Source of the DNA: an uncultured Verrucomicrobiota bacterium
GTDB taxonomy: Bacteria; Verrucomicrobiota; Verrucomicrobiia; Limisphaerales; UBA9464
Assembly (NCBI GenBank): GCA_903880005.1
Contig: CAIRNV010000190.1
Location: forward strand, 1 to 36,511
Length of the DNA: 36,511 nucleotides
Direction: 5' to 3'
A model generated the notes under the pieces. It searched no databases, was not told the DNA's origin, and was given only the letters and a program-made list of their open reading frames with translations. Position 1 is the stretch's first letter; every line of letters begins with the position of its first letter. A program made the translations under genes and the position numbers. Positions 6,301 through 36,511 of the stretch are shown here, one piece after another.

Positions 6301-6402
6301 GCCAGGACGATTCGGACACGTTGAAGAGCTATCCCGGCGCCGGCTGTGTCGCGAAACAGCGGCAGGATGCCGCTGCCACTCTCATTCCTGCATCGTTCCG
6401 GC
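6301..6402. repeat. Probable decayed short element abutting full repeat copy 1
   Basis: GCCAGGACGATTC at 6301-6313 matches the left terminal repeat of the family (GCCGGGACGATTC) with one difference. CTGCATCGTTCCGGC at 6388-6402 matches the right end (CTGCATCGTCCCGGC), also with one difference. Between them is unrelated sequence containing a perfect hairpin, CAGCGGCA/TGCCGCTG, at about 6357-6375. The right end directly abuts the left end of the full copy, giving a near-perfect 25-bp palindrome at the junction. It starts 6 bases after the response-regulator stop. Confidence 0.4.
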
Positions 6403-6572
6403 TAAGCCGGGACGATTCAGTTGGGAGGGAAGTGATTGCGAAGCAGATGCTTGCGCAAGACGAGGAGTGAGCGAGGCGCGGGCCGGTACGAGGCCCGTAA
6501 CGAGCGAGCGACGAAGGATTTGCGCAAGCAGATCGAGCAAGCACGACCGATCCAACTGCATCGTCCCGGCTA
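6403..6572 (+). repeat. 170-bp interspersed inverted-repeat element, copy 1 (complete)
   Basis: This copy has the same length as copy 2 and aligns with it without gaps. The left end is TAAGCCGGGACGATTCAG and the right end CTGCATCGTCCCGGCTA, which are inverted repeats of each other. Inside are a 10-bp complementary pair, GCTTGCGCAA (6449-6458) with TTGCGCAAGC (6520-6529), and a central hairpin, GGGCC/GGCCC (6480-6484 and 6492-6496). The element fills the convergent space between the response regulator and the lamin-tail/CotH gene, and its last three bases provide the TAG stop of the latter. It contains no open frame that looks like a transposase. Confidence 0.85.
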
Positions 6573-9500
6573 GGGCCCTGCGATGACTTGGATGAACCGC
6601 GTGTCGTCGGCGGACGGGATGGGGATTTCCACGGTGCGCGCGTCGCCGGCAGGGATGTCGGAGAGCTTCTCCCACGAGCCATCGACGAGGCGGGTGCGCC
6701 AGCGCACGGAATACGCAACGCCTGCCTGCGTCCCGAGGCGAAGAGCCGGGGGCGGGCCGTGCAACATGGACAGGACAGGCGGGCTCACGGCGGCCCGGGC
6801 CACCACCGTGACCGTGTCGGAGGCCGTCCGCGCGCCGTCGTGGACGGTGAAGCGAAGGACGTAGGTGCCGGCCGCGCCAAAGGCAGCCGACGTGGCCGGG
6901 GAATCCGGCGGGTCGAACGTCACCGTCCCGGGCCCGCTGACCGTGCTCCAGGAGAAGGTCGGGACGCCGGGAAGGGCGGGAAGGCCGTCGTCCGTGAAGC
7001 CGGCCACCAGCCTGGCGACGCCGGGCAGCCGGATCTCGGCGGATGCCGGGGCCTTGGCGGTGGGGGCTGCGTTGGCCCCGAGAACGGTCGCTTGCAGGGC
7101 CAGGTCAAACCCCAGGTCCGAACTCGTGCGATTCACCTGGTGAATCTCCACGGCCAGCACGTTGTCACCATCCACCAGCAACGCCGGCGACACGGTTCCC
7201 TCCACGGGCGTCGTCTCGTCGGCTCCTCCTATGGTCTGGCTGGCGAACGTGCCGAAGGAAATCGCGCCCTCGGGCATCGCCGACCGCATCACCTCGGCTC
7301 CATTCAGGTACACCACGCCGCCATCGTCGCGGATCAACTGGACCTTGAGGTCCTTGACGGCCGCCGCCGAAGGCACGTTGAACCTCAGGCGAAAATAGGC
7401 CGTCGGGATGCGATCGAGAATGCTGCCCCCTGCAATCGTCGTGACCTCGCCGTCGCCCCCATACCCGAGGCGCGCCTTGCCTGTCTTCCATCCCGTGTCC
7501 GCAAACGTTCGCTCGCGCCATGCGCTGCCCAGGTCCTGTCGTTGGTCGAAGTATCGCCAGGTCGATCCAAACGGCACGAGGGTCGCGGCCTCCCCGGGGC
7601 GCGCCACGGTGAGCTGCACGTCGTCCGTGGCCTCGCGTTCGCCATCGGACGCCCGCCAGCGGAGGACGTAGGTGCCTTGGCCGGGCAATTCGACGACGCC
7701 GTTGCTTGCCCCGGGCGCGCGAAACACGACGCCGCGCGGCCCGGAAACCTGCGTCCATTCGCCGGACAAGCGCGCCGGCTCGGGAAGGCCGTCGTCGGTC
7801 GCCCAACCTTCGAGAGCCACGGAAAGCGGAAACGCCGCGGACAACCACTCTCGGTCGGGCCCGGCGGACACGCGCGGCGATCGATTGGAACCGGCCGCCG
7901 CGCCGGGCGTGGGCCCGCCCGTGGCCGCGCGCCAGGCATTCGGGTCATTCCCGTACAACGCCGGCGCGCGTCGTTCCAACGAGACGCCGCCCAGCCCCGC
8001 CGCGATGGGCCATGGCGCTTCGCCGTCATAACGCGCCTCGTCCACGGTCACCCTCGGCACCACGACCGAGACCGCGCCGGAGGGCAGGGTCACGGTCGTG
8101 GGCCCGTCTGGCTTCTGGAGGCGGAGGAACTCGCCATCGGACTGGAGGGTGCCCTGCCAAGGGCCCAGCACGACGACCGACGCCGGCAGGCCGTAGGCTT
8201 GGCGGAACCGCCCGGGATCCGTCCCGGCGATGACGACGTGGGCGCCGGATGCGAGGACGAATCCCCGTGGGAAGGCGAAGTCGATCCCGGACACCCCCCA
8301 GGTGTTGTCGGGGTTCGCCGGGTCGAACAGCGGGACGTCGAGGCCGGAACGGTTCCACAGCTCCACGAATGGCAGATCACCCGGGCCGGGGGCGTAGTGG
8401 ATCTCCTGCAACACGACGGGCGGGAGCTCGGGAGGGCTGTTCGCCGCGCCCAGCGTGGGAGCCGCGGACCTCACCATGGACACGTGGCCGGATGAGTTCG
8501 TCCAGCGCACGAAGGTCTCCCCGTTGAACGAGGCCCCGAACGACACGCCATCGACATGGCCCGTGAGACGGCCCTCGGCGTCGGCGCTCAGGAGGTACAC
8601 CTGGTCGCCCAACGACGAGAGCCGGAATGCGTTGGTGCCCTGGTTGACGTCATGGAAGGCCGATTCATCCAGCACCAGCCATCCGCCCGGCGGAAGCAGG
8701 GTGCCAGCCGGGATCCGATACTTGGCGGGGCGTGACGGGTCGTCCGTCAGCCACCAGCCACCCACGGGCGCGACGACGGGGTTGGGATTGAACAACTCGA
8801 CGGTGTCCAGCGCCGGCGGGTCCGTGTGGGCGAGGACCTCGTTGACGATCACGGGCAAGATGCCCGCAGAGACGTCCTCGGCCCCGGGCGATCCTCCCAC
8901 GCGCGAGCTGGCACGCCACGCCGCCGCGTCCCCGGGCCCGGGCTGGGCAATGGGGTTGGTGGGAACCAAGGAGAAGCCGAGGCCATCCGCGCCCGCAGGC
9001 CACGCCGCGCCCACGCCGTACAACACTTCCATCACGAGCCCGCCCGCCGGGTCGGCCAACGCCAGGCGCTCGCCCGTGTTCGACAATTGGCCGGTGTACA
9101 CAAAGTCCGGCGCGACGCCGGCGTAGCGATTCGTGAACGCAGCCCGGTTTTCCGCCAGCACCAGGAACGAGCCCCCTTCCAGCAACGTCCCCATGGGGAA
9201 CTCCAACCCGATGCCATCGACGAAGCGGAACCCCGACAACTCCACGGCGGACGAGCCGATGTTGTGCAGCTCCACGAACTCGAACTCGTCGCGGGTGAAA
9301 GCCCCGGACGGGTCGGCAGCTGGCCGGTAATGGATCTCGGAAAACCGCAGCCCGGAGACGTCTTGGCGCACGTGGAAGGTGGCCTCCACCAGCGGGCTCC
9401 ATTCGTCGATGCCGGGCTCCACCCGGTGGACGCGTGCCTTGATGACGCGCGCGGAGCGCAGGGCGATGGGGTCCGTGTAGCGGCGCGACGCGGCGGACTC

Positions 9501-11810
9501 GGCGCCGCTCGGGGAACGCGGGTCGGAGCCATCGGACGTGAAGACCACGAAGCCCGCGCCGGGGTTGGCCAGGGTGACGACCGAGCCGGGGGCGACGATC
9601 CCGCCGAAGGGCGACATGGAGGGTGCCGCGATGACCGGGAAGAGGTTCGCGGCGCGAAGCTGGCCAAGGACGATGTTGCCCCGGGATGGGAGGTAGGCGT
9701 TGAGGATGCGGTTGGCGGCGGGGAGCCAGTGGCCGTCGCGGGTCAGGGGCGTGGATGTCTTGCTATCTCCCCATCGCGCGGACTCGGCCACCACGGGGAG
9801 GAAGAGTTGGTTCGTGCGTGCGGCGAAGCGGCCCTGGGCGGCGGCGGCCGTCAGGGCCCCTTGGTTGAAGAAGTGGCGTTGGACGCGGTCGGCGACGCGA
9901 AGGCGGAAGGACGGGCTTTGCCAGAGTCGCTGCCAAATGTATTGGGGGTTCGAGTACACGACGGAGTCGTTGCCCGCGGCGAAGGGCCCGACCCGGTTTT
10001 GGTTGACGTCGAGCAGCGTGTGCTCGGCGTCGTGGGAGATGAAGCGGAAGCCGCCGTGGGCGCCGGTGCGGTCGCGCAGGCCGTACCAGTTGTTGGGCCG
10101 GGTGTTGCCGAGGAAGTTCGAGATCGGGGCGTCGAGGTTGCCGCCAAAGACGATCACGAGCATGTAGTCGATGAGGTTGTCGATCTCGAGGAGGTTCTCG
10201 TAGGCGGCGTTGGGCGTGCCGTCCGGGTTGCGGCCCTGGACGCGCCAGAAGGTCGTCTCGGCATTGGATGCCGTGATGGCCTTGCATTGGTTGTAGAGCC
10301 GGGTCCACGCGTCGAGCGTGCCGTCCGTCGCGTTGATGGCATAGGGCCCCGCCTCGACCTTGATCACGTCGTAGTCCTCGGGGCGTCCGCCGAAGTAGGC
10401 GGAGCCAAAGTTGGCCTCCGGCCGCTCGCACGAGTTGAAGATCCCCCAGTACACGCCGTTGATGTAGAGGTGGTAGTAGTTGCCGCGCTCGCCTTGCTGT
10501 CCCATGGCCAACTGGGTGTCCCGCGAGAACACGTCGCGGATGAAGACCCCGTTGGAACCGTCGCCGGGGTCGAAGCTCCACGAGTAGTTTTGGAACGTCC
10601 GGAGATCGAGCGCGTCGAACTCCTCCACGCCGCCGGCATGCAACGGGAACCGAAGCTTGTCCACGCCGTAGGCTTCCCGGAAGAAGAAGCGGAACGCGTG
10701 CTTCGGGTTGCCCGTGGAACGGCTGAACCCCCCGCGAATCCGCACGCCGCAGTCGGCCTGGAAGCCCGTTCGCCCGTCCGGGAAGATCAGCTCCAACGAC
10801 GCCGGCCGCTCCCAGTCGCGGCCGTCCTGCCCCGGGTTCGAGAAGATGCCCGTCGCACCGTCGAACAGGTTCGAGAGCGTCGTTACCAGGCTGAAACTCG
10901 GCAGCGCCTTCAACGCCGGGATGATCTGCGCCGCATACGTCGGGGAGTCCACGATCCGCGGATCCATGCCATAGTTGTACGTTTGCGACTGGCTTCCCGG
11001 CGTCGGCCACTCCGGCCATGGCACCGCCCCGGTCGGTGACTGACGGATCACGTCCCCCAGGAACAAGTACGTCTGCGTGTCCACGTCCGACGGTTGCAGC
11101 CCCGCCTTGAACGCCGCCGCCCGCATGACCGTCGTGCGGGACACCCGCACCGGCCCCCCATACACCGTCCCCGTGGTCGCCGTGGGCGGCGCGCCGTTCG
11201 TCGTGTAGCGGATCGTCGCCCCCGCCGTGGCGCACGTGATGGCCAGGTCGAACGGTTGGTCGAACACGCCCCGGTCCACGCTGAACTTCGTGTCCGCCAC
11301 GAAGTCGCCCACGCCCCCCGCGTTCGCCGCGCCCGGCGTCGGCGGGTTGAAGTAGTAGGCCTGGCCGGCCCGCGTCCCATACGAGATGTCCGCCCGCTGG
11401 GACGGATACGAGGGCGCGAACTCGGTCGCGGCCGGCCCCTCGGGCGGGAACAGCGCGAGGTATTCGCCATCGGCCGACAAGCTGAAGCTGGTGTGCAGGG
11501 GCGCCGCGTTGTTGGTCCGGTTCTTGCCCGAGGCGAACACGACGAGGTACGCGCCGGGTGAAAGGGTGACGGTGGGAAACACCCACTTGCGGGGGGCGCC
11601 TGCGTCGTCCGTGAGGGACCAGCCCTGCAAGTTGACTGGCGCCGTGCCCCCGTTCCACAGCTCGATCCAGTCGGGTCGATCCCCGTCCGCATCCACCAAC
11701 CCCTTGCCGTTGCTGGCAAGGAACTCGGTGAGCACCACCTGTCCCATCACCCGTGCACCCAGCACCCCGGCGAGGAGCCCCACCCATGTCGCCCGTTGCA
11801 AATTCTTCAT
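6570..11810 (-). CDS. Giant secreted lamin-tail-domain / CotH protein
   Basis: A 1746-residue exported protein. ATG at 11810 is chosen because it is preceded by GGGGG at good spacing and opens a signal peptide (MKNLQRATWVGLLAGVLG); an in-frame ATG lies at 11822. In order: lamin-tail domain 1 (about 23-150), a chitobiase-C-like beta module (175-250), a CotH-like region (about 340-620, with NPKHAFRFFFREAYG and FRFISHDAEHTLLD), and a second beta module (735-800). Lamin-tail domains 2, 3 and 4 follow (about 815-960, 985-1120, 1130-1290), then PKD-like 1 (1312-1403), a jelly-roll segment (1410-1580), PKD-like 2 (1583-1672) and a terminal beta module. CotH relatives include atypical secreted protein kinases, but activity here is unproven. 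Lamin-tail domains are common in surface proteins of this phylum. The stop codon lies in repeat copy 1. The domain calls are good; the role is unknown. Confidence 0.88.
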   Translation of the reverse strand: MKNLQRATWVGLLAGVLGARVMGQVVLTEFLASNGKGLVDADGDRPDWIELWNGGTAPVNLQGWSLTDDAGAPRKWVFPTVTLSPGAYLVVFASGKNRTNNAAPLHTSFSLSADGEYLALFPPEGPAATEFAPSYPSQRADISYGTRAGQAYYFNPPTPGAANAGGVGDFVADTKFSVDRGVFDQPFDLAITCATAGATIRYTTNGAPPTATTGTVYGGPVRVSRTTVMRAAAFKAGLQPSDVDTQTYLFLGDVIRQSPTGAVPWPEWPTPGSQSQTYNYGMDPRIVDSPTYAAQIIPALKALPSFSLVTTLSNLFDGATGIFSNPGQDGRDWERPASLELIFPDGRTGFQADCGVRIRGGFSRSTGNPKHAFRFFFREAYGVDKLRFPLHAGGVEEFDALDLRTFQNYSWSFDPGDGSNGVFIRDVFSRDTQLAMGQQGERGNYYHLYINGVYWGIFNSCERPEANFGSAYFGGRPEDYDVIKVEAGPYAINATDGTLDAWTRLYNQCKAITASNAETTFWRVQGRNPDGTPNAAYENLLEIDNLIDYMLVIVFGGNLDAPISNFLGNTRPNNWYGLRDRTGAHGGFRFISHDAEHTLLDVNQNRVGPFAAGNDSVVYSNPQYIWQRLWQSPSFRLRVADRVQRHFFNQGALTAAAAQGRFAARTNQLFLPVVAESARWGDSKTSTPLTRDGHWLPAANRILNAYLPSRGNIVLGQLRAANLFPVIAAPSMSPFGGIVAPGSVVTLANPGAGFVVFTSDGSDPRSPSGAESAASRRYTDPIALRSARVIKARVHRVEPGIDEWSPLVEATFHVRQDVSGLRFSEIHYRPAADPSGAFTRDEFEFVELHNIGSSAVELSGFRFVDGIGLEFPMGTLLEGGSFLVLAENRAAFTNRYAGVAPDFVYTGQLSNTGERLALADPAGGLVMEVLYGVGAAWPAGADGLGFSLVPTNPIAQPGPGDAAAWRASSRVGGSPGAEDVSAGILPVIVNEVLAHTDPPALDTVELFNPNPVVAPVGGWWLTDDPSRPAKYRIPAGTLLPPGGWLVLDESAFHDVNQGTNAFRLSSLGDQVYLLSADAEGRLTGHVDGVSFGASFNGETFVRWTNSSGHVSMVRSAAPTLGAANSPPELPPVVLQEIHYAPGPGDLPFVELWNRSGLDVPLFDPANPDNTWGVSGIDFAFPRGFVLASGAHVVIAGTDPGRFRQAYGLPASVVVLGPWQGTLQSDGEFLRLQKPDGPTTVTLPSGAVSVVVPRVTVDEARYDGEAPWPIAAGLGGVSLERRAPALYGNDPNAWRAATGGPTPGAAAGSNRSPRVSAGPDREWLSAAFPLSVALEGWATDDGLPEPARLSGEWTQVSGPRGVVFRAPGASNGVVELPGQGTYVLRWRASDGEREATDDVQLTVARPGEAATLVPFGSTWRYFDQRQDLGSAWRERTFADTGWKTGKARLGYGGDGEVTTIAGGSILDRIPTAYFRLRFNVPSAAAVKDLKVQLIRDDGGVVYLNGAEVMRSAMPEGAISFGTFASQTIGGADETTPVEGTVSPALLVDGDNVLAVEIHQVNRTSSDLGFDLALQATVLGANAAPTAKAPASAEIRLPGVARLVAGFTDDGLPALPGVPTFSWSTVSGPGTVTFDPPDSPATSAAFGAAGTYVLRFTVHDGARTASDTVTVVARAAVSPPVLSMLHGPPPALRLGTQAGVAYSVRWRTRLVDGSWEKLSDIPAGDARTVEIPIPSADDTRFIQVIAGP

Positions 11811-11978: not shown

Positions 11979-12005
11979 CTACAGTCCTCACAGCACCGGA
12001 GTGAA

Positions 12006-12066
12006 GGTGGCAGCGGCATCCCCCCGCGGTTCGTGACCCAGCCCGAGCCGAGACGGCTCTGCCACC
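12006..12066. repeat. Structured intergenic palindrome sharing a 15-mer with 6365-6379
   Basis: GGTGGCAG (12006-12013) and CTGCCACC (12059-12066) are perfect inverted 8-mers. They enclose a smaller hairpin, GAGCCG-AGA-CGGCTC (12045-12059, sharing one base with the outer stem). GTGGCAGCGGCATCC at 12007-12021 recurs as its exact reverse complement at 6365-6379, inside another hairpin between genes. This points to a second small intergenic repeat family, distinct from the 170-bp one. It follows the operon end at 12082. Confidence 0.45.
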
Positions 12067-14634: not shown

Positions 14635-15111
14635 TCAGTCCTGCAACAGGTCGATCACGCGGATTCTCAGGTTTTGCTCGCCGGTCGCGGGCGACGCGCC
14701 CACGTCCAACACCACGAAGTCCGCCGCCGCGTCGGCCGCGAAGGGATGGAACACCACCGATCCCAGCCGCAGCCACTCGGAGGTCGTGGACCTGAGTTGG
14801 CACGCGGCGATGAAGCCGGTCAACGACAGTTTCCCGTGGCCCGGATGGGCCGTGCGAAACGCCGAGTAGCGACCCCGGATCTCGGCGAGGGCGACCGGTG
14901 TCGTGGCCGTCCCGGCGCTGGCGACGCCGGCGACCCCACGCGCCTTCCGCAACGCCTTGCCCATGGGCGCCAGCATCAGCGAGGCCAGGATCCCGATGAT
15001 CGCCATCACGCACAGCAACTCGACCAAGGACACGCCCAACGCTGCCCGGCGCCCGGCGCGCGACGCGCGACCTTGGCCGGAACGATGGAATGGGAGGGAA
15101 GGTGATGTCAC
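14635..15111 (-). CDS. Type II secretion / type IV pilin-like pseudopilin
   Basis: A 158-residue prepilin-like protein. After a basic 26-residue leader comes the cleavage and methylation motif G26|VSLVE, with Glu at +5 of the mature protein (Glu31). A hydrophobic helix, LLCVMAIIGILASLMLAPM, follows. The soluble remainder is short and unlike major pilins. Proteins of this kind are numerous and scattered in this phylum, and no secretion ATPase or prepilin peptidase is encoded here. The start is GTG at 15111. The first about 14 codons coincide with a sequence very like the left end of the 170-bp repeat, so part of the leader appears to be repeat-derived. A start closer to the motif is conceivable. 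Confidence 0.85.
   Translation of the reverse strand: MTSPSLPFHRSGQGRASRAGRRAALGVSLVELLCVMAIIGILASLMLAPMGKALRKARGVAGVASAGTATTPVALAEIRGRYSAFRTAHPGHGKLSLTGFIAACQLRSTTSEWLRLGSVVFHPFAADAAADFVVLDVGASPATGEQNLRIRVIDLLQD
15072..15108. repeat. Solo left end of the 170-bp repeat inside the pseudopilin leader
   Basis: CTTGGCCGGAACGATG at 15072-15087 differs at one base from CTTAGCCGGAACGATG at the left end of copy 2 (17114-17129). It is followed by TGGGAGGGAAGGTGA (15091-15105), corresponding to TGGGAGGGAAGTGA in the full copies. No core or right end follows. The segment lies within the first codons of the pseudopilin gene. Confidence 0.65.
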
Positions 15112-15156
15112 GGGAGCTTCGCGGTCCCGCGATGCGCGCGCGGGACGTTGGGGTCG

Positions 15157-16741: not shown

Positions 16742-16836
16742 CCCGCAACACCCGAAGGACAAGGCTCTTGCGAAGGAAGGTTCCGCCCACCGGCCCGATC
16801 CGATGGACCCGCCTCCGTCCCGTCGGATCGTCCCGA
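16742..16836. repeat. Decayed right half of the 170-bp repeat family
   Basis: CGAAGGACAAGGCTCTTGCG, beginning at about 16753, closely matches CGAAGGACGAAGCTCTTGCG in copy 3 (36465-36484). The similarity continues with GAAGGAAGGTTCC against GAAAGAAGATCC. ATCGTCCCG at 16828-16836 then matches the right terminal repeat. The intervening bases are diverged. Read by eye, this is a degenerate copy lacking a recognisable left half. The rest of 16680-16950 holds nothing else I can support. Confidence 0.4.
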
Positions 16837-17114: not shown

Positions 17115-17284
17115 TTAGCCGGAACGATGCAGTTGGGAGGGAAGTGATTGCGCAGCAGATTCCTTCGCAAGACGAGGAGTGAGCGAGGCGCGGGCCGGTG
17201 CGAGGCCCGTAACGAGCGAACGACGAAGGATTTGCGCAAGCAGATCGAGCAAGCACAACCGACCCAACTGAATCGTCCCGGCTA
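17115..17284 (+). repeat. 170-bp interspersed inverted-repeat element, copy 2 (complete)
   Basis: The 23-bp ends at 17115-17137 and 17263-17285 are inverted repeats matching at 21 of 23 positions (TTAGCCGG-R-ACGAT-K-CAGTTGGG). Outside them the symmetry continues as CTTGGC against GCCAAG-like bases for a further 6 bp with one mismatch. The central hairpin is GGGCC (17192-17196)/GGCCC (17204-17208). Compared with copies 1 and 3, its left inner arm is of copy-3 type and its right arm of copy-1 type, leaving mismatches. It has the same orientation as the other copies and is joined directly to the Sel1 remnant. Confidence 0.88.
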
Positions 17285-34022: not shown

Positions 34023-36353
34023 ATGAGCTACCAAGTCTTCAAGAAGGGCCGCGGAGGATCCACGTTCAAGCCCTCGGGCGGCATCGCCGCCGGGCCAGCC
34101 CGCCCGGCCGCCACCCCGCAACAATCTTCGCAGTCGTCCCCGCCGCCCAGGACCCGGGACTCATCCGCGGCCCACGCCGAGGAACGCCGCAACCGCCGCC
34201 GCCTCGAGGAGGAAATCCGCCGCGCCGAAAACCTCGCCGCCGGCCTCCCCGAGGACGCCGTGCCCGAGTCCGCCCCGGACTATGCCGCCTCCGGGCGCGA
34301 CCAGTCGTACCGGCGCCCCATCGACGACGACGACGAGTCCCATGAGCCCCGGCGGACGGGCGCCCGGCCCGACGACGACCGCGACCGTCGCGACGACGAG
34401 CGCGGCGACGCCGTCCACCGCGACGACGAGGGGGAACGCGACGAGGCCGGGGCAGATGGCGACGCGGATCGTGAGGGCGAACGCGAGGGCGAACGCGAGG
34501 GCGACTCCGACGCAGGGCGCGACCGCGCCCGGGGCGGACGCGGCCGACGAGGCCGTTCCCCGCGTCGGCGCGGGCGCGGCCGCGACTCGGATGACGCGCC
34601 GCGCCTCGACCGCGAGGGCCGCGGGGAGGGCCAGGAACGGGCCGGGGGCGATGATCGCGACGAGGATTCCGGGCGACGCGACGAACGGTCGCGTGCCCAC
34701 GCCGAGCCTCAGAGGTCCGGCGGCCGGGACGCCGCCCGCAAGGTTCGGGAGCCCGTGGAGCCCGAGCCGAAGGTCTCGAAGGAGGTCATCATCAGCGCGG
34801 AGCCGCTCGAGAGCCGCGTGGCCGTGCTCGAGGACAGCCGGCTCGAGGAGTTCACCGTCGAGCGCACGAACGACGCCCGGCTCGTCGGCTCCATCTACAA
34901 GGGCAAGGTCAAGAACCTCGAGGACAACCTGAAGGCCGCGTTCGTGGACATCGGCTTCGAGAAGAACGCCTTCCTCCACTACTGGGACATCGTGCCCAGC
35001 TCCCTGGACTCCAACGTCGAGATCGTGGAGCGCCATGACGGCCGGGCGCGCCGCAACGACAAGCCCAAGTTCACCCAGAAGGACGTCCCCCGCCTCTTCC
35101 CCCCGGGCTCGGAAATCATCGTCCAGGTCACCAAGGACGCCATCGGCACCAAGGGGCCCCGCGTCACCACCAACCTCTCCCTGCCCGGACGCTACCTCGT
35201 CCTGCTTCCCAACTCCGACCAGTCCGGCATCTCCCGCAAGATCGAGAGCGGCGAGGAACGCCAGCGCCTGAAGAAGATCGTCCGCGAGCTCTCCATCCCC
35301 GAGGGCATGGGCGTCATCGTGCGGACCGCCGGCGAGGGGAAGCTCAAGCGCTACTTCATCCGCGACCTCGCCATGCTCCTGGAGGAGTGGAAGGAGGTGC
35401 AACAGCACATCAAGGAGCAGCCGCTCGCCACCTGCGTCTTCCAGGAGCCCGACCTCATCGAGCGCACCGTGCGCGACTTCCTCACCGAGGACGTGACCCG
35501 CATCGTCATCGACAACCACGGCAAGTTTGAATACATCCGCGACGCGATCGCCCGCATCTCCAAGCGGTCGTCCGGGCGCATCCACTTCTACAACGAGGCC
35601 GAGCCCCTGTTCGACCGCTTCAACATCACCCGGCAACTGGAGTCCGCCTTCTCCCGCCAGGTCTCCCTCAAGTCGGGCGGCTACCTCGTCATCGACGAGA
35701 CCGAGGCGCTCGTGGCCGTGGACGTCAACACCGGCAAGCACAAGGGCGGCAAGGACCACGACTCCGCCATCCTCCGCGTCAACCTGGAGGCGGCCGACGA
35801 GATCTGCCGCCAGCTCCGGCTCCGCAACATGGGCGGCATCATCGTCCTGGACTTCATCGACATGCGCTCGCGCCGCGACCAGCAGCAGGTGTACCAGCGC
35901 GTCAAGGAGGGCCTCCGCCGCGACAAGGCCAAGACCCACGTCCTCGCCCTCTCCCCCCTCGGCCTCATGGAGATGACCCGGCAACGCCAGACCGAGTCCG
36001 TCCAGTCCTCCCTCTACGAGGACTGCGTCCACTGCCGCGGCCGGGGCTTCATCAAGTCCGCCGAGACCATGTCCGTCGAGATCCAGCGCAAGCTCACCGC
36101 CATCCTCAAGGCTCGTCCACGCGACGACTCCGACTTCCAGGTCAAGGTCGTCTGCAACCCCCGCGTCCTCGACCGCCTGCGCACCCGCGACGAACGCCTC
36201 CTCATCGACCTCGAGAAGCGCTTCTTCGCCAAGCTCACGTTCCGCCCCGACGGCTCCTTCCACAACGAGCAGTGGATCGTGTACAACGCGCTCACGAACG
36301 ACGAGATCGCCCGCGCGGGCATCGACGAGCAGCACCATCAACACGGGGCCTAA
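34023..36353 (+). CDS. Ribonuclease E/G with a long disordered N-terminal extension
   Basis: A 776-residue endoribonuclease of the RNase E/G family for mRNA decay and rRNA processing. The catalytic core starts at about residue 253. It has an S1 RNA-binding region (about 285-390), then Asp567 (VAVDVNTGKHKGG) and Asp610 (GGIIVLDFIDMR), and the zinc-link Cys668-x-x-Cys671 (CVHCRGRG). The 43- and 58-residue spacings match Asp303, Asp346 and Cys404 of E. coli RNase E. Residues 1-252 are low-complexity and highly charged (REGEREGEREGDSD; RGGRGRRGRSPRRRGRGR), whereas E. coli RNase E carries its disordered scaffold at the C-terminus. Start is ATG at 34023, 18 bases after rodA. Co-transcription with the shape operon is likely. 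A repeat element starts 8 bases after its stop. Confidence 0.95.
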   Translation: MSYQVFKKGRGGSTFKPSGGIAAGPARPAATPQQSSQSSPPPRTRDSSAAHAEERRNRRRLEEEIRRAENLAAGLPEDAVPESAPDYAASGRDQSYRRPIDDDDESHEPRRTGARPDDDRDRRDDERGDAVHRDDEGERDEAGADGDADREGEREGEREGDSDAGRDRARGGRGRRGRSPRRRGRGRDSDDAPRLDREGRGEGQERAGGDDRDEDSGRRDERSRAHAEPQRSGGRDAARKVREPVEPEPKVSKEVIISAEPLESRVAVLEDSRLEEFTVERTNDARLVGSIYKGKVKNLEDNLKAAFVDIGFEKNAFLHYWDIVPSSLDSNVEIVERHDGRARRNDKPKFTQKDVPRLFPPGSEIIVQVTKDAIGTKGPRVTTNLSLPGRYLVLLPNSDQSGISRKIESGEERQRLKKIVRELSIPEGMGVIVRTAGEGKLKRYFIRDLAMLLEEWKEVQQHIKEQPLATCVFQEPDLIERTVRDFLTEDVTRIVIDNHGKFEYIRDAIARISKRSSGRIHFYNEAEPLFDRFNITRQLESAFSRQVSLKSGGYLVIDETEALVAVDVNTGKHKGGKDHDSAILRVNLEAADEICRQLRLRNMGGIIVLDFIDMRSRRDQQQVYQRVKEGLRRDKAKTHVLALSPLGLMEMTRQRQTESVQSSLYEDCVHCRGRGFIKSAETMSVEIQRKLTAILKARPRDDSDFQVKVVCNPRVLDRLRTRDERLLIDLEKRFFAKLTFRPDGSFHNEQWIVYNALTNDEIARAGIDEQHHQHGA
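34473..34508 (+). repeat. 12-bp tandem repeat in the ribonuclease N-terminal region
   Basis: GAGGGCGAACGC occurs exactly twice in tandem (34473-34484 and 34485-34496), followed by a partial third unit, GAGGGCGACTCC. It encodes the EGER repeats. Because the unit is a multiple of three, slippage would change the length of the disordered region without breaking the frame. Confidence 0.75.
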
Positions 36354-36361
36354 ACCACCCC

Positions 36362-36511
36362 TTAGCCGGAACGATTCAGTTGGGAGGGAAGTGATTGCGC
36401 CGCAGATTCTTTCGCAAGACGAGGAGTGAGCGAGGCGCGGGCCAGTGCCAGGCCCGTAACGAGCGAAGGACGAAGCTCTTGCGAAAGAAGATCCAGCAAG
36501 CACGACCGATC
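36362..36511 (+). repeat. 170-bp interspersed inverted-repeat element, copy 3 (cut by window end)
   Basis: The left end TTAGCCGGAACGATTCAG begins 8 bases after the ribonuclease stop. The copy follows the other two without gaps for 150 bases, so about the last 20 bases lie outside the window. Its inner arms 36407-36419 and 36477-36489 are perfectly complementary over 13 bp, with base changes relative to copy 1 on both sides that keep pairing. The central hairpin is GGGCC (36439-36443)/GGCCC (36451-36455). Orientation is the same as in copies 1 and 2. Confidence 0.85.

Follow-up and report, generated by a model that had tools for sequence, protein, structure and literature searches.

Bacterial MITEs such as NEMIS, RUP and ERIC (PMC3733652) and QMITE2, which forms a large stable hairpin (PMC10969869), are, as far as the excerpts of these two papers go, small intergenic elements that lack a transposase, carry terminal inverted repeats (TIRs), duplicate their target and can fold into a hairpin. 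The GTAG palindromes and other REPs, which occur in the verrucomicrobium O. terrae, are described in the same excerpts as interspersed palindromes of 20-40 bp that are often linked to RAYT (PMC3733652). The insertion sequences (ISs) of the IS1380 family (NF033539; PF13701) are a third point of comparison and carry a transposase.

We analyzed a stretch of 36,511 nucleotides (hereafter the window), which corresponds to contig C190 in a draft assembly of 5.02 Mb, 492 contigs and 96.6% completeness (G000, hereafter the own genome). It contains a 170-bp element that has all the MITE traits listed above, from the TIRs and target duplication to the intergenic position and hairpin, but that differs from these MITEs, in properties measured for the element only, by an interior better conserved than the TIRs, by covarying helices and by strand-specific tandem G.A mismatches. 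With the REPs and GTAG palindromes it has in common that it is an interspersed palindrome of Verrucomicrobia; it is, however, 170 bp long, has target duplications and bears IS1380 ends. Finally, the 18-bp ends and the CTNAG target are of the kind found in an IS1380-family IS present in the same genome, whereas the element itself lacks a transposase and resembles the ISs at their ends only. Stable MITE hairpins and verrucomicrobial GTAG REPs were already known.

The initial annotation, which was made from the sequence of the window, could not match this family to a named one. This holds for the resources that we searched. We obtained no match to the window in Rfam 15 at the gathering threshold, and a further Rfam search gave three matches no better than chance (best E 0.66), each scoring well under that threshold. 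In the open-licence literature we found no description of the element or of an IS1380 MITE in Verrucomicrobia.

Structure of the element and its copies in the window

The window carries two full copies on the plus strand, copy 1 at 6403-6572 and copy 2 at 17115-17284, and a third (36362-36511, plus strand), 7 bp past the gene 34023-36353, that is truncated where the contig stops at 36511. As initially proposed, all three share one orientation and can be aligned without gaps. Copy 1 is bordered by TAA on the left and TAG on the right, which agree at the middle base, and on the right it overlaps the stop codon of a gene encoded on the minus strand (6570-11810). Copy 2 is bordered by TTA and TAA and thus lacks an exact duplication.

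In copy 1, the left TIR (6406-6423, plus strand, GCCGGGACGATTCAGTTG) is of the kind found at the ends of the IS1380 partner described below (GCCGKAACGATTCAGTTG), and the right TIR lies at 6553-6570 (plus strand, CAACTGCATCGTCCCGGC). Between them, on the same strand, are the 5' strand of a covarying middle helix (6448-6459, with its partner at about 6519-6530), the 5' half of a conserved core (6461-6477, CGAGGAGTGAGCGAGGC), a tip hairpin (6478-6498, GCGGGCC...GGCCCGT) that is replaced in other lineages with its pairing largely kept, and the 3' half of the core (6499-6517, AACGAGCGAGCGACGAAGG), with which the 5' half forms tandem G.A mismatches. The inner GGGCC/GGCCC hairpin of the initial annotation is therefore present. 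The TIRs of 23 bp that it proposed exist as arms, but the inversion runs well past 23 bp, and the whole 170-bp element is one imperfect palindrome. As to coding capacity, three of the six frames are open throughout (56 codons), but none of the three has a match in Pfam at E up to 0.1.

Four partial ends had also been proposed. The one at 16742-16836 is supported at 16743-16807 by a decayed internal/3' fragment of a copy (plus strand, 18.7 bits), and the one at 15072-15108 corresponds to a weak 5'-end trace (15072-15120, plus strand, 9.6 bits). Much of the interval 6301-6402 is another interspersed repeat, with a very weak 3'-end relic of the element at its right end (about 6388-6406, plus strand, GCATCGTTCCGGCTAAG, 3.6 bits) that is joined to copy 1 via a shared TNA. 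The partial end at 168-186 gave no profile match at E up to 100.

The other repeat in much of 6301-6402 (GGCAGCGGCATCCTGCCGC) has TIR-like edges. An interspersed repeat around GGCAGCGGCATCCTGCCGCTGG was observed in the window at 6322-6390 and 12000-12060 as well as in L135, L141, L145, L151 and L152. It has a REP-like look and is sometimes clustered with AAGCGGCTGGAAGCCGCTTCC; its seed was matched exactly 7 times in 426.6 kb.

Abundance and genomic setting

A 19-base core string with up to 3 mismatches matched the own genome 375 times, versus 17 times for the reversed control, so that roughly 360 recognisable cores are present. The family is thus genome-wide, as the initial annotation had suggested, and not confined to the copies of the window. 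Its estimate was about one trace per 5 kb; a profile search of 426.6 kb (the longer contigs plus the window) recovered 59 traces, which corresponds to about one per 7.2 kb. Of these traces 32 were at least 150 bp long, 9 were of 70-110 bp and 18 of other lengths.

Based on the gene calls of a simple hexamer gene finder, none of these 59 traces lay mostly inside a predicted gene; 27 were located in gaps between tandem genes, 14 in convergent gaps, 8 in divergent gaps, and 10 where the stretch begins or ends. The 27 tandem-gene traces exhibited no orientation bias to the neighbouring genes (11 same, 16 opposite). This argues against a simple function in host mRNA and would rather speak for the element's own spread. 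The stop codon of a gene was exactly the duplicated TNA in 7 of 59 copies. Unoccupied CTNAG sites numbered 191 in genes and, outside genes, 39 in non-coding positions versus 10 at stops; a preference for stop codons was consequently rejected, the 7 copies showing no enrichment above the available sites.

Copies were also found nose to tail with one common TNA, and two tandem copies lie within a DDE transposase gene (L196, positions 1-430 of contig C31 of the own genome). Several contigs of this genome (e.g., C15, C110, C112, C336, and C245) start or stop in or near a copy, and the family thus seems to limit the assembly. Shorter deletion derivatives, a further trait in common with other MITEs, occur with about 85 bp at six positions (L143:4826, L145:3571, L146:10026 and 17891, L153:164, and L135:2669). 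Short forms without the core exist, and these six are all joined at the direct repeat GCAGAT, due either to repeated slippage or to the amplification of a short subfamily. Since such a junction can arise by in-place slippage, these short forms are no proof that the core is dispensable. Other length variants have about 13 extra bases 5' of the core 3' half (L120, L124, L125, L131, and L063) or extra bases in the tip loop (L074, L108, L122, L123, and L126).

Target duplications and empty sites

The element and its flanks follow the pattern C-TNA-GCCGG...CCGGC-TNA-G. The 148 full-length contexts were reduced to 127 copies by removing hits of 30 bits or less; 87 of these had both ends by the end pattern and 57 were solitary, including L061, which was retained in spite of a visibly wrong right end. 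The base N agreed at both ends in 23 of the 31 solitary copies of the own genome (2000 shuffles: mean 11.6, maximum 20). For the solitary copies of its relatives the count was 19 of 26 (shuffles: mean 7.5, maximum 15). Agreement was thus above every shuffle in both sets, and in G007 all three TNA bases agreed in 9 of the 9 listed copies. The duplication may measure 3 or 5 bp, two lengths that are indistinguishable because the C and the G of CTNAG are fixed.

We also recovered empty sites in sister genomes from the genus. The 87-bp copy at L135:2669 is absent from the orthologous gene junction in six of the seven matching genomes (G002, G003, G004, G005, G007, and G008, with 20-31 bases between the flank matches), the seventh, G001, having 95 bases between them. 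The 172-bp copy at L148:10704 is absent in all five matching genomes (G002, G003, G004, G007, and G008, with 24-58 bases between the flank matches). Mobility, which the initial annotation had inferred, is thus supported both by target duplications and by two insertion sites that are empty in relatives.

A candidate IS1380 partner

A transposase of the IS5/IS1031 type, a type that duplicates TNA, was the first candidate for a partner; it was dropped once the PF01609 search had led to an IS1380 element. This element, on contig C131 of the own genome, encodes a transposase of 463 aa that scores 242.4 bits against the NCBIfam IS1380 model (NF033539, cut-off 180 bits) and also matches PF13701. On the right this IS terminates in CAACTGAATCGTTACGGC, with TAAG next to it, and the contig begins within the left TIR (AACGATTCAGTTG). 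Complete left ends, located after CTAA, were recovered on two more contigs of the same genome (beginning with CTAAGCCGGAACGATTCAGTTG and CTAAGCCGTAACGATTCAGTTG; L225 and L228), and by the sum of these coordinates the IS would be about 1.51 kb long. The 18-bp ends and the CTNAG target are common to this IS and to the element. IS1380 elements make duplications of 4-5 bp, which would fit CTNAG. The transposase flanked by the same ends, whose search the initial annotation had recommended, was found on C131.

The 170-bp element has the TIRs, the small size and the lack of a transposase of a MITE. In view of its copy number, its target duplications, the empty sites and the ends and target that it shares with the IS1380 element, the initial view of a MITE-like, genome-wide family was right. 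As judged from these sequence comparisons, the element is very probably a MITE served by the IS1380-type transposase of the same genome; an enzyme of the C131 type would move the gene-less element by recognizing the ends and target common to both.

The element profile, run on the 37 loci from two IS1380 searches, touched the ISs at their ends only. The one full element among these loci (L229) adjoins a second IS1380 of the own genome (C188), which at 176.6 bits is under the cut-off. Among 23 DDE loci, element copies were found, besides C131 (L187), in L196 and L204, with no sign that the DDE genes of these two loci are flanked by element ends. Homologous ISs in G052 (C603), G028 and G001 carry such ends on the left and on the right, each next to TNA, and right ends alike were also observed in G015, G049 and G052 (C57). 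Five of the six genomes with such ISs (G001, G015, G028, G049, and G052) lack the element or have a 33-bp trace only. In a search of 24 genomes, the IS1380 model exceeded its cut-off only in G000, G002 and G003. Among the 16 carriers of the element searched, all of them drafts, 15 had no full IS1380 above the cut-off and G000 alone passed, a weak negative since draft assemblies tend to lose repeats; the putative partnership with IS1380 is thus supported for the own genome only. No partner IS was found for the end form of G046, and the IS1380 relative of that genome (C8) has different ends (TAGAAACGGCAGTT...). An end resembling those of G007 and G046 (TACTGCATGGATACGGCTT) was observed at about 120-142 of L298 (G003:C88), in or beside an IS1380 reading frame; G003 is without the element's core pattern.

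The initial annotation had also considered a REP-like family, for which mobilization of a REP/REPIN by a RAYT (Y1) transposase would be expected. Y1_Tnp genes are indeed widespread (51 of 58 genomes, including the own genome with 2 matches). Yet G004, which is 91% complete, has 16 exact core matches and no Y1_Tnp match, and the element profile gave no match at 30 Y1 loci of relatives, most of them from element-free genomes, nor at C432, where one of the own genome's two Y1 matches lies. No RAYT gene flanked by element ends was thus found at these loci, and a RAYT linkage of the repeat was rejected. As the element has, in addition, target duplications and IS1380 ends, we regard a RAYT-driven origin as highly improbable.

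Distribution among genomes

A DNA search of 58 genomes gave matches in nine. They were strong in G000 (the own genome), G004, G007, G023, G027, G029 and G046, and amounted to traces in G001 and G012. A gapped pattern of the core matched 16 genomes, spread over three genera of two families, when 320 genomes from the order were searched, and its control matched none. When 387 genomes from the whole phylum were searched with a covariance model built on the interior, the own genome alone was recovered, a weak negative since 10 candidates were scored per genome under strict filters. Viral contigs (searched with the exact pattern), plasmids and phages yielded no element match.

The copies were collected by similarity to one copy and partly by the core string (copies of G000 and G004 only), so that conserved stretches were favoured. 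The alignment used below (A2) comprises 59 of the 125 listed copies, namely a random 14 of the 75 from G000, 6 of the 11 from G004 and all others; 42 of these 59 served to build model R1.

Fold, paired changes and conservation of the core

With RNA parameters, the plus strand of copy 1 forms one full-length hairpin of -95.7 kcal/mol (z -11.7), and the minus strand folds less well (-75.3 kcal/mol, z -6.7). With DNA parameters the values are -49.8 (z -8.1) and -43.3 (z -5.9), respectively, and the upper stem of the plus strand adopts a different fold. Under RNA parameters this upper stem consists of short G-C steps alternating with tandem G.A mismatches. Among the 127 copies, G.A made up 58-65% of the symmetric internal-loop mismatches of the plus strand in each of seven genomes, as counted from minimum-energy RNA folds, which favour G.A.

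The consensus structure of A2 (59 copies from seven genomes and two families) contains 40 pairs, of which 24 changed on both sides; 95.5% of the cells were paired, versus 85.0% in shuffled and 27-41% in slid controls. The inner helices, considered without the ends and lower arms, gave a similar picture: two-sided changes in 14 of 20 pairs and 95.6% of the cells paired (26-47% when slid). The paired changes are clearest at the tip, where GCGGGCC/GGCCCGT, GCGTATC/GATACGT, GCGCATC/GATGCGT, GTGGACC/GGTCCGT and GTCCCGC/GCGGGAT replace one another between the same core halves, the gapped pattern having left the tip free. Imperfect tips also exist, in G007 (GCGTATC/GATCCGT) and in some copies of G046 (C8 and C17).

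Comparison of four lineage consensuses (G000, G007, genus g3, and G046) gave identities of 0.91 and 0.97 for the two core halves, versus 0.79 and 0.73 for the TIRs, 0.71-0.77 for the other arms and 0.58 for the tip. The contrast between the core and the rest was smaller copy by copy, with 0.876 and 0.763 for the core halves, 0.686-0.745 for the TIRs and arms and 0.457 for the tip; the value of the 3' half rose to 0.861 without the columns of the 13-base insertion present in 5 of the 59 copies. Between lineage consensuses, the G.A-rich core is thus the most conserved part of the element, above the ends that face the transposase.

These observations could be due to an ordinary MITE with an unselected interior, the palindrome being kept by repair between the arms (template switching) and the core conservation reflecting common ancestry and the similarity search. 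In agreement with this, both bases of a pair were exchanged for a different Watson-Crick pair in 64 cells within G000, as expected from arm-to-arm correction or from subfamilies. Moreover, a single copy or its core had served as the query by which the copies were collected, and large stable hairpins occur in other MITEs, as the excerpted description of QMITE2 indicates (PMC10969869). Nevertheless, repair between the arms should erase the G.A mismatches, yet these are frequent in each of the seven genomes, and the mismatch-forming core halves are the best conserved parts (0.91/0.97 versus 0.58-0.79 elsewhere), the reverse of what is expected if the ends alone matter. We give this explanation a little less than an even chance.

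We lean slightly towards the view that the folded plus strand is under selection, as single-stranded DNA or as RNA. Such selection would account for the strand bias and the paired changes as well as for the persistence of the G.A mismatches, whereas arm-to-arm repair accounts for the paired changes and not for the persistence of the mismatches.

Discussion

If the folded plus strand is selected, its likeliest role, which we suggest with reserve, would be to serve the propagation of the element itself, for example if a transposase or a host factor acted on it as single-stranded DNA or as an extruded DNA hairpin. A role as RNA would be the main alternative.

Another reading is that the element is the vehicle of a structured RNA (a terminator, a small RNA or a protector of mRNA 3' ends), with selection in the host acting on the RNA fold and mobility only spreading it. 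The very strong RNA fold of the plus strand and the intergenic location of the copies are in line with this possibility, as are the non-Watson-Crick pairs of the four lineage consensuses, which on the plus strand comprise 14 G.U, 0 A.C and 1 other. The lean of the consensuses towards G.U is, however, partly built in, since the RNA folding program chose the pairs, and the one-sided changes within G000 copies were 41 G.U, 30 A.C and 121 others. Single-stranded DNA also tolerates G.T. The unbiased orientation to tandem genes reported above, the lack of an Rfam match and the absence of a T run 3' of the hairpin in the flanks listed further argue against a structured RNA selected in the host, which we consider unlikely.

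Returning to selection on the folded strand, its most far-reaching version would be a gene-less element whose selected product is its own folded strand, a tandem-G.A hairpin bounded by IS1380-type ends that changed between lineages and acting as single-stranded DNA or RNA in its spread or in the host, i.e., a SINE-like parasite of bacteria. We propose this version only tentatively, as a speculation with the chances against it.

MITEs are usually taken as passive, their ends alone mattering; here the interior is best kept and the ends drift. The dependence of a gene-less bacterial transposon on a structured single strand thereby becomes directly testable, and an abundant repeat of uncultured Verrucomicrobia is provided with a candidate partner, the IS1380 transposase, and with a target rule, CTNAG.
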